From Firmicutes bacterium FC7 (GTDB taxonomy: Bacteria; Bacillota; Clostridia; Tissierellales; Tissierellaceae): a stretch of 64,000 nt of DNA. Shown piece after piece: positions 45,889 through 55,262 of this stretch. Made by a program: the position numbers and the translations under genes. The stretch spans positions 340,774-404,773 of the forward strand of contig JAKELU010000001.1 of NCBI GenBank assembly GCA_022760735.1. Direction: 5' to 3'. The notes under the pieces were generated by a model, which saw nothing but the letters and a program-made list of their open reading frames with translations, searched no databases and had not been told where the DNA came from. Within the stretch, counting starts at the first letter, position 1, and each line of letters opens with the position of its first letter.

Positions 45889-47226
45889 TTATATGCCTAA
45901 TAGTAAAGTTGCAATTGAAAAGTAAACTGTTAAAGATATGGCATCTACTAATGTAGTTATTAAAGGTCCAGCCATTATTGCTGGATCTATTTTTAGCGTT
46001 TTTGCTATTATTGGCAATACTCCCCCTACCATCTTAGCCATTAGAACTGTTACTATTAAGGTTAGGGAAACAGTTAATGCTACTTTTAATTCAACTTTTT
46101 CTATTACTAGTAATCTTATAAAGTTTGTAATTGAAAGAGTTATACCTACTATTATTCCAACCCTAAATTCCTTCCATAATACTTTAAATTTGTCTTTTAA
46201 TTCTATTTCGCCTGTTGCAAGCCCACGTATTATTAAAGTCGAAGACTGATTTCCAGAATTACCTCCTGTGTCCATAAGCATTGGAATGAACGAAGCTAAA
46301 ATAACAACAGATTGTAATACTTCATTAAACTTAGCTATTATCCTTCCTGTAAAAGTGGCAGACAACATGAGTATCAACAGCCAAGTTATTCTATGCTTTG
46401 CAAGGTTAAACACACTTGTATCCAAATAAGCTACATCTGATGGTGCCATAGCAGCCATTCTTTGGAAGTCTTCTGTTGCTTCTTGTTCCATAACGTCTAC
46501 GATATCATCAACTGTTATAATTCCTGTTAATCTATTTTCATTATCTACTACTGGTAAAGCTAAAAATCCATATTTTTTAAATACATTTGCTACTGTTTCC
46601 TGATCATCGTGAGTATTTACAAAAATTACTTCATCTTGCATTATGTCTGAGATCAGCACATCATCATCAGACGTAACCAAAGTTCTAAGAGATACTATAC
46701 CTTCCAAGGTTCTTTTCTTATCTGTCACATAACATGTATAGATAGTCTCTTTATTTAATCCAGTTTCCTTTAGATGAGCTAGTGCTTCCTTTACAATCAT
46801 TGTCTTTCTTAGCTCAACATACTCGATAGTCATTAGACTACCAGCTGATGATTCTGGATATTTAAGGAACTGATTTATCAGATTTCTTTCCTCTTGAGTA
46901 GAATTTTTAAGTATTTTATTAACTATATTTGATGGCATCTCTTCAATTATATCTATCATATCATCAAAGAAAAGTTCATCTAATATATAGGTTAGCTCCT
47001 TATCTGTAACAGCATTTATTATTTCTCTTTGCTGTTCTGTAGAAAAATGAGCAAATACCTCAACAGCTAAATCCTTGGGAAGCATCCTAAAGATCAGCAA
47101 AGTAGTATTTGTATCAAGAGGGTCTAATATCTCAGCAATATCTACCTCATTCATTTCAGAGAGTATGCTTTTCAACTGTTTATATTGCTTACTCTCAATA
47201 AGTTGTAGGATTTCAAGTTCATTCAT
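45889..47226 (-). CDS. mgtE: Magnesium transporter MgtE
   Basis: The 445-residue protein has an N-terminal helical domain (1-125), two CBS domains (about 130-250; VTDKKRTLEGIVSLRTL and FGFLALPVVDNENRLTG) and five membrane helices (about 280-445) including the pore signature PMLMDTGGNSGNQSSTLIIRG. MgtE is a Mg2+ channel gated by Mg2+ bound to the N and CBS domains. Start ATG has AAGGAGGAAGATT. Upstream lies a leader with a small reading frame and alternative hairpins; I see no M-box signature there. Confidence 0.96.
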   Translation of the reverse strand: MNELEILQLIESKQYKQLKSILSEMNEVDIAEILDPLDTNTTLLIFRMLPKDLAVEVFAHFSTEQQREIINAVTDKELTYILDELFFDDMIDIIEEMPSNIVNKILKNSTQEERNLINQFLKYPESSAGSLMTIEYVELRKTMIVKEALAHLKETGLNKETIYTCYVTDKKRTLEGIVSLRTLVTSDDDVLISDIMQDEVIFVNTHDDQETVANVFKKYGFLALPVVDNENRLTGIITVDDIVDVMEQEATEDFQRMAAMAPSDVAYLDTSVFNLAKHRITWLLILMLSATFTGRIIAKFNEVLQSVVILASFIPMLMDTGGNSGNQSSTLIIRGLATGEIELKDKFKVLWKEFRVGIIVGITLSITNFIRLLVIEKVELKVALTVSLTLIVTVLMAKMVGGVLPIIAKTLKIDPAIMAGPLITTLVDAISLTVYFSIATLLLGI

Positions 47227-47254
47227 AATCTTCCTCCTTATTCAGTTTTTAAGT

Positions 47255-47338
47255 TTAGGAAGACCACAATAAAGGCTTGGATTGTGGTTCTTCCTCATTA
47301 TTTAAATTGCTCTGTTTGGGTAAAGGACTAGAATCCAC
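47255..47338 (-). CDS. Candidate leader peptide upstream of mgtE (27 codons)
   Basis: GTG start at 47338 with AAAGGAG eight bases upstream; 27 codons, stop TAA at 47255, then 28 bases to the mgtE ATG. The peptide is rich in Pro, Ser and acid: it starts MDSSPLPKQ and contains NNEEEPQSKP. The EEEP tract with nearby prolines recalls the ribosome-destabilising leader MgtL, which senses low Mg2+ in enterobacteria. The stop codon falls at the foot of a hairpin (47257-47295). An in-frame ATG six codons upstream lacks a ribosome binding site. Whether it is translated is not shown by sequence. Confidence 0.55.
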   Translation of the reverse strand: MDSSPLPKQSNLNNEEEPQSKPLLWSS

Positions 47339-47343
47339 AATCC
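47257..47343 (-). promoter_or_regulatory. Alternative-hairpin mRNA leader of mgtE
   Basis: Three segments share one sequence: minus-strand GGATTGTGG (47343-47335, covering the leader GTG), CCACAATCC (47287-47279) and ATTGTGG (47270-47264). Segments 1-2 pair over 9 bases; segments 2-3 form part of a 14-bp hairpin (AGGAAGA-CCACAAT with one bulge). Only one can form at a time. Confidence 0.6.
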
Positions 47344-47381
47344 TCACTCCTTTCATACTTATAGTTTCAATTTCTCAATTT

Positions 47382-47410
47382 ATTATAACACAAAGCATCA
47401 CTTATGGAAA
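47382..47410 (-). promoter_or_regulatory. Sigma-A-type promoter of mgtE leader
   Basis: TTTCCA, 17 bases, TGT-TATAAT (extended -10) on the minus strand, giving a start near 47375 and a leader of about 150 bases. Confidence 0.65.
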
Positions 47411-47438
47411 AAAAAGATAAGCTTTTGCTTATCTTTTT
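47411..47438 (-). terminator. Terminator after IscA-like selenoprotein gene
   Basis: AAAAAGATAAGC and GCTTATCTTTTT arms with a TTTT loop; the gene's stop codon overlaps the base of the stem. Confidence 0.85.
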
Positions 47439-47734
47439 TAACAACTTGGACCAACTCTATCTGGTGTTACAGTAAATCCTCTTCTTAACCAGCTATCACC
47501 ATAATCAACTATAAACTTGCCATAACTATTACTTATTTCATCCTCAATGACAAAGTTAAAGTCATCAACCATAATTTTATCATCGCCATCCTTAGGCTCA
47601 TCCAGAGCCAATCCAAATGATGGGCCGCCTCAGCCATAAGATGCAATAAATATCCTTAGTGGTTTATTAGTGTTTTTTGACTCTATTATTTTCTTCAATT
47701 CAGATTTTGCTTTATCAGTAATTTCTATAATCAT
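47438..47734 (-). CDS. IscA/HesB-like selenoprotein (in-frame UGA = Sec)
   Basis: Read with UGA at 47630-47632 as selenocysteine, the frame runs 98 residues from ATG 47734 (AAGGAGGGATTGGTT upstream) to TAA 47438. It begins MIIEITDKAKSELKKIIES and has RIFIASYG-U-GGPSFGLALDE. Sec sits at residue 35, the place of the first conserved cysteine (C35) of IscA; a C-terminal GPSC keeps a second thiol. A SECIS-like hairpin follows the UGA. HesB-like selenoproteins are a known prokaryotic family. Its promoter overlaps a CsoR/CstR-like operator. The role could be redox or Fe-S/sulfur handling; a split pseudogene is the alternative but would not explain the conserved residues on both sides. Confidence 0.88.
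47595..47632 (-). other. Bacterial SECIS element and Sec codon
   Basis: On the minus strand, UGA is followed after 25 bases by the loop of a hairpin GGCTC-TGGAT-GAGCC. Distance, 5-bp stem and G residues in the small apical loop match bacterial SECIS rules. Confidence 0.85.
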
Positions 47735-47755
47735 AACCAATCCCTCCTTATACTT

Positions 47756-54973: not shown

Positions 54974-55262
54974 AAAAAAACCTTCATCTCACACATAGAG
55001 ACGAAGGTTGAATTCGCGGTACCACTCTAATTTATTTAAATCTCACGATTTAAATCTTAGTAGGTTTAAAACCTTATAGTATAACGGCTACATCCGTTAC
55101 AGCCTATTAGACTGTAAAATTCAGGGGCCATCTTCAGATAAACTTAAACACTGGCTTTCACCTTACCCAGCTCTCTTTTGATTAAGCACTTATCCTACTC
55201 TTCCCATCATTATTTTTATAGTATTATTTCTTAATATTAGTATTTTATGGTTTGCTACTTAA
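54974..55262 (-). ncRNA. T-box leader of metG
   Basis: On the minus strand: stem I sequence AGAGAGCTGGG..GGTGAAAGCC, a candidate Met specifier AUG (55131-55129, in GAAGATGGCC), the T-box motif TGGTACCGCG (55024-55015), and a terminator AACCTTCGTCTC-like stem (55009-54979) with seven T residues. Uncharged tRNA-Met would favour the antiterminator and metG expression. Confidence 0.92.

Follow-up and report, generated by a model that had tools for sequence, protein, structure and literature searches.

Results

The leader region of mgtE

The stretch of DNA analysed here, 64,000 nucleotides long and referred to as the window, carries on its minus strand a gene for a Mg2+ transporter of 445 amino acids, mgtE (positions 45889-47226; PF01769, 5.2e-39; MgtE_N, 8.8e-26; CBS, 5.1e-17). 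Its start at 47226 is preceded by a Shine-Dalgarno (SD) sequence. MgtE is the only such protein encoded in the genome, the second match being limited to 53 residues with an E-value of 7.5e-4. A leader of about 150 nt separates mgtE from an upstream HesB/IscA-like gene (47438-47740, minus strand). The latter contains an in-frame TGA at codon 37 (SYG-U-GGPSFGL), scores slightly below the cut-off with NF038090 (IscA_HesB_Se, 1.8e-22) and is a probable selenoprotein gene; SelB is encoded in the same genome, with a score above the cut-off.

At the upstream end of the leader we found a sigma-70-type promoter with an extended -10 element (TTTCCA, 17 nt, TGT-TATAAT; 47382-47410, minus strand), which has 10 of 12 matches and a TG preceding the -10 hexamer. 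Transcription probably starts near 47375, and TGTGNTATAAT was found again in relatives at the equivalent promoter position. An earlier note on this DNA had described a 27-codon frame at 47338-47255 with AAAGGAG at good distance, and both features were recovered on the minus strand. The upstream open reading frame (uORF), MDSSPLPKQSNLNNEEEPQSKPLLWSS, starts with GTG and ends after 27 codons with TAA at 47257-47255. Its SD sequence AAAGGAG (47353-47347) is located 8 nt upstream of the GTG and is conserved across an alignment of 25 leaders. Codons 2-7 (47335-47318) encode DSSPLP, with one acidic residue and two prolines, and form a candidate ribosome-destabilising sensor. An in-frame ATG further upstream, at 47356, was ruled out as the start codon, as it is not conserved (AAG in relative L038) and lacks an SD sequence of its own.

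No intrinsic terminator was found in the leader. An Rfam scan of the window detected neither the M-box (RF00380) nor the Salmonella mgtA leader RNA; around the leader, nothing M-box-like and no relevant family appeared even at an E-value of 10. The M-box was also absent from the genome itself and from three other genomes of the genus. The sole Rfam match in the window was a T-box leader (RF00230, 127 bits) at 54994-55219 on the minus strand. No EttA-type ABC-F protein scored above the NCBIfam cut-off in the organism's own genome.

Alternative folds of the leader

Folding of the leader, together with covariation in relatives, defines four RNA segments on the minus strand. Region 1, GGATTGTGG (47343-47335), spans the uORF start codon and is complementary without a mismatch to CCACAATCC (47287-47279), which is part of region 2. 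Region 2 as a whole (47295-47279) encodes EEEPQS, and its positions 47295-47281 can alternatively pair with region 3. Region 3, ATTGTGGTCTTCCT (47270-47257), has as its partner either region 2, in the predicted ON state, or the ribosome-binding site of mgtE, in the predicted OFF state. Region 4, AGGAGGAAGATTAT (47238-47225), comprises the mgtE SD sequence and spacer, and becomes inaccessible in the OFF fold through pairing with region 3. The complementarity of ATTGTGGTCTTCCT to the SD sequence in AGGAGGAAGATTAT provides a third helix, which the earlier note had overlooked.

When the leader was folded whole, helices 1:2 and 3:4 formed together. Removal of the start region gave a 14-bp hairpin of regions 2 and 3, with one bulge, which CCACAAT joins and which ends at the uORF stop; the mgtE SD sequence was then largely free. 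When both the start region and region 2 were removed, region 3 paired with the SD sequence. The two competing hairpins of the earlier note are borne out by these folds, including their pairing positions. The fold of the 166-nt leader was better than that of 198 out of 200 dinucleotide shuffles (z -3.15), and the isolated 3:4 hairpin of the window gave a z of -3.06.

Occurrence of the leader in relatives

A DNA search of 60 relatives located the leader in the genus, in other genera of the family and in another family. Within the family, it precedes 27 of the 29 mgtE genes present in 28 genomes, and where mgtE is duplicated in tandem the leader is kept at each copy. For wider searches, a covariance model (R1) was built from 25 leaders, and a second model (R2) was used for the phylum. 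The leader was detected in 62 of 199 genomes of the order (R1, E<1e-5), in 39 of 391 genomes of the class (R1, after removal of the false hits L203 and L205) and in 17 of 398 genomes of the phylum (R2, after removal of the false hit L216). Carriers include Tissierella, Soehngenia, [Clostridium] ultunense, Geosporobacter and a Haloplasmataceae MAG. Pattern hits in Streptomyces and Eubacteriaceae (L165 and L161) were rejected as false on reading.

We also surveyed the class starting from mgtE rather than from the leader, by searching 65 upstream regions for an SD-preceded M[DE]x0-2P frame. Such a frame was present in 9 regions, as compared to 0.65 in shuffled sequences and none on the reverse strand, or in 11 if L230 and L231 are counted, which the script missed through SD spacing or start choice. 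The leader thus accompanies a minority of the mgtE genes of the class, yet it does so across many families. Four further mgtE leaders in the class have variant peptide starts (MDAYPGR in L240, MDAHPGR in L246, MDDGSCP in L239 and MDDGPCH in L250) and were caught by neither model; the leader family is probably wider than both models show. One genome (G032) has a second, near-identical leader (L108, G032:C1:2174200-2176300) in front of an mgtE gene whose reading frame is interrupted after 14 codons, representing a decaying duplicate or a sequence error.

Covariation and accessibility of the mgtE ribosome-binding site

Helices 1:2 and 2:3 are mutually exclusive, and both covary. For helix 1:2, 93.6% of the alignment cells were paired and 10 of 13 base pairs had changed on both sides, with a score of 0.528 versus at most 0.139 for slid positions. 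With an alignment that had not been fitted to the helix, pairing was 91.4% and the score 0.437 versus at most 0.179. Helix 2:3 was paired in 82.4% of the cells, with double changes in 6 of 10 pairs and a score of 0.323 versus at most 0.168. Helix 3:4 is the weakest of the three: its best-duplex energy beats 95% of shuffles in only 30% of the leaders.

Because the 3:4 sequences differ among clades, the accessibility of the mgtE SD sequence was computed instead. A first two-state fold gave no clear effect and was confounded, long bulged 1:2 helices having run into region 3; in the final version the helix was limited to its core. Over 94 leaders, the probability that the SD sequence is unpaired was 0.27 when region 2 was held by region 1 and 0.65 when region 1 was masked, whereas control leaders with a shuffled region 3 gave 0.36 and 0.34. 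Averaged over 21 families, a step taken to reduce the influence of relatedness (70% clustering was dropped, the lenient aligner having merged the leaders into two clusters), the values were 0.27 versus 0.60, with 0.46 and 0.40 for the control (Wilcoxon p 1e-4). The unpaired probability rose by more than 0.1 in 15 of the 21 families and fell in one, while about five to six families showed little or no predicted difference (f9, f25, f40, f49, f59 and f63). As judged from these comparative and folding data, the anatomy of the switch is strongly supported.

Conservation of the leader peptide

Codon statistics were derived from 85 leaders in the covariance-model alignment, since an earlier pattern-picked set was biased by the presence of D2 and P in the selecting pattern. 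Codon 2 encodes D or E in all 85 leaders, codon 5 proline in 83 and codon 7 proline in 72. The conserved N-terminus, M-[DE]-[SP]-x-P-L-P or more generally M[DE][SP]xPxP, directly follows the start codon, with variants such as MDPVPLP, MDPGPLP, MDSYPEP, MDSDPLP, MDYPDPLP, MDPDPGS and MEPVPKP. The synonymous share of differing codon pairs was 0.25-0.89 for codons 2-7 versus 0.03-0.05 for codons 8-15, a pattern indicating that codons 2-7 are under selection at the level of the peptide. The rest of the peptide drifts, freely so in codons 8-15, yet the frame runs open through both hairpins. Past codon 8 it continues for 16 codons or more in all 85 relatives, whereas the other two frames do so in 9 and 7 of them. 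Most uORF stop codons lie 11-18 nt before mgtE; some overlap mgtE and some uORFs extend well beyond the mgtE start.

Conservation across families, covariation and maintenance of the frame together exclude chance as the origin of the leader. The earlier note had placed the Mg2+-sensing element at EEEP, codons 20-23, and this assignment was rejected. EEEP occurs in two of the four genomes of the window's genus and EEP in the other two, these four being the only ones with EEEP or xEEP; the codons sit in the pairing arm of region 2, where other genera encode other residues, and what is conserved and codon-constrained instead is M[DE][SP]xPxP, which the note had passed over. The alignment that the note had proposed as a check showed covariation in both helices and no conservation of the EEE/Pro codons beyond the genus.

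Association with Mg2+ genes and with the M-box

Nearly all leaders precede mgtE. The remaining ones are leaders before corA in two Anaerosolibacter genomes (PF01544) and in one third genome, one before a PRC-barrel protein, and those of L209, L210, L212 and L213, four species that share a genus. In these four, a leader starting with MDSGPYS precedes a gene whose 416-aa product has PRC, MgtE_N and CBS domains but lacks the MgtE membrane domain; L209 also has an M-box.

An M-box precedes the leader by a few hundred bases, within one 5' region, in at least 15 scanned loci, one Anaerosolibacter corA among them (L097, L100, L120, L133, L141, L146, L166, L209, L218, L225, L229, L230, L232, L233 and L238). 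In such loci the two elements apparently act as two Mg2+ sensors in series. The suggestion that the leader stands in place of an M-box therefore holds for the window's genus, which has none, but not for the many relatives that carry both in tandem.

Discussion

Proposed mechanism

The sequence comparisons support the earlier suggestion of a translated leader that is coupled to alternative hairpins before mgtE and resembles enterobacterial Mg2+ leaders. On these grounds, and by analogy with those leaders, we consider it probable that a leader peptide and a four-segment RNA switch sense low Mg2+ via the ribosome and control translation of mgtE. We infer that the uORF is translated, that Mg2+ is the signal, that ribosomes drop off rather than arrest, and that the switch has the ON and OFF direction described below. 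Combining the layout of mgtQ with the ribosome drop-off of MgtL leads to a model centred on a ribosome translating MDSxPLP. Segment 1 would be the uORF start, segments 2 and 3 would lie inside the uORF, and segment 4 would be the mgtE SD sequence. As long as the vicinity of the start is free of ribosomes, or once a ribosome has passed through, 1:2 would pair, so that segment 3 would pair with segment 4 and bury the SD sequence (OFF). If a ribosome is detained on the start codon or on codons 2-7, it would cover segment 1, allowing 2:3 to form and freeing the SD sequence (ON). In its acidic residue and alternating prolines, M-[DE]-[SP]-x-P-x-P belongs to the kind of motif that destabilises ribosomes at low Mg2+. 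At low Mg2+, ribosomes translating MDSxPLP would pause or drop off close to segment 1, and MgtE would be made, whereas at sufficient Mg2+ they would reach the stop codon beside the mgtE SD sequence, 1:2 would re-form behind them and mgtE would be shut off.

Alternative explanations

The same switch and a real peptide could also serve a different signal, with ribosomes slowed at the early prolines by a shortage of prolyl-tRNA, by reduced EF-P activity or by translation stress in general. Next to D2, conservation is strongest at P5 and P7, and Mg2+ leaders of Salmonella reportedly also respond to EF-P and to the translation of proline codons (PMC6460261, and a paper on MgtL proline codons cited in PMC11282234). 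The peptides have no PP motif, however, and a proline sensor would not need the invariant D/E2; furthermore, the leader is found only before genes of the Mg2+-transport type, often beside an M-box. We therefore regard a proline or EF-P signal as improbable. A sensor is dispensed with altogether if ribosomes that terminate on the uORF are simply passed on to the start of mgtE and raise its translation, the peptide and helices setting no more than the rate. The tight clustering of stop codons just upstream of mgtE, some overlapping it, would suit such translational coupling, which is nevertheless rather less credible still: it requires neither peptide-level conservation of codons 2-7 nor competing covarying helices, and some uORFs end well past the mgtE start.

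Two other readings are very unlikely. That EEEP is the Mg2+-sensitive element gains from its combination of acidic residues with proline and from its presence, in full or as EEP, throughout the genus. Apart from its absence elsewhere and its position in a pairing arm, a ribosome lost at EEEP would already be past region 1 and would have disrupted 2:3, which leaves this reading with hardly any credit. A protein-free riboswitch or purely RNA-based Mg2+ sensor, with an incidental frame, would account for strongly structured RNA with covariation. It would explain neither the synonymous pattern in codons 2-7 nor the open frame in every relative, nor the SD sequence and start codon that are always present, and in the loop that separates regions 1 and 2 nothing resembling an aptamer is conserved apart from the codons; we consider it the least plausible of all.

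Significance and relation to known systems

Beyond the window, we lean slightly towards the view that Bacillota have widespread ribosome-based Mg2+ sensors, MD[SP]xPxP leaders of mgtE, corA and MgtE_N proteins, which arose independently of MgtL and MgtQ, converged with them in peptide chemistry and in the 1:2/3:4 versus 2:3 logic, and often act in series with an M-box. If this is true, ribosome-based Mg2+ sensing is widespread and has arisen more than once, and M[DE][SP]xPxP provides mechanistic studies with a natural collection of destabilising N-termini. It would also explain control of mgtE in lineages without an M-box, and where an M-box is in series the division of labour between RNA sensor and ribosome sensor can be tested on a single mRNA.

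The M-box (ykoK, RF00380) is likewise a Mg2+-responsive 5' UTR element before mgtE and corA, but it is separate from the leader, upstream of it in many relatives and absent from the window and genus. In Mycobacterium tuberculosis, an Mbox and a conserved small uORF share one leader; there the Mbox is reported to control the uORF (PMC12810186). The 'mgtE motif' SRC-65-1, a structured RNA upstream of mgtE found only in Thioalkalivibrio and proposed to be a riboswitch, has no uORF described (PMC11109978). No Rfam family covers the present leader, and we found no description of it in the searchable full-text literature.

Enterobacterial MgtL starts with MEPDPTPLP. The Bacillota leader shares with it an acidic and alternating-proline N-terminus (the variants MDPDP and MEPVPKP included) in a uORF before a Mg2+ transporter gene, although in codons 2-7 the window peptide is less acidic and proline-rich than EPDPTPLP. 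The predicted output is the SD sequence of mgtE, whereas MgtL acts on mgtA, encoding a P-type ATPase. At low Mg2+, ribosomes translating MgtL drop off at EPDP (PMC11282234); full translation keeps the transporter off, with mgtA controlled by Rho-dependent termination, according to Chadani 2017 and others as summarised in PMC11282234.

In Salmonella mgtQ, a switch between 1:2/3:4 and 2:3 has been shown experimentally; its region 1 lies in the uORF, and the acidic codons 2 and 5 are required (PMC8092293). The Bacillota leader resembles it in the alternation of 1:2 plus 3:4 with 2:3, in the location of region 1 inside the uORF, in acidic codon 2, and, as predicted here, in occlusion of the transporter's ribosome-binding site by 3:4 and in translational rather than transcriptional control. 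By prediction, 3:4 hides this site only when 1:2 forms, an effect that is weak or absent in some families. Codon 5, acidic in mgtQ, is almost always proline here. Moreover, mgtQ has 8 codons and precedes the gene for the P-type MgtB between mgtC and mgtB in a virulence operon, whereas the Bacillota leaders have 24-60 codons (27 in the window), a proline-rich N-terminus and a place in the 5' UTR of mgtE, often with an M-box; there is no evident homology between the two. The leader would thus work like MgtL and mgtQ but belongs to neither, differing in gene, organism, length, sequence and codon 5. In the literature found, Mg2+-reporting leader peptides that act by way of unstable ribosomes are confined to enterobacteria, and the Bacillota case would be new.
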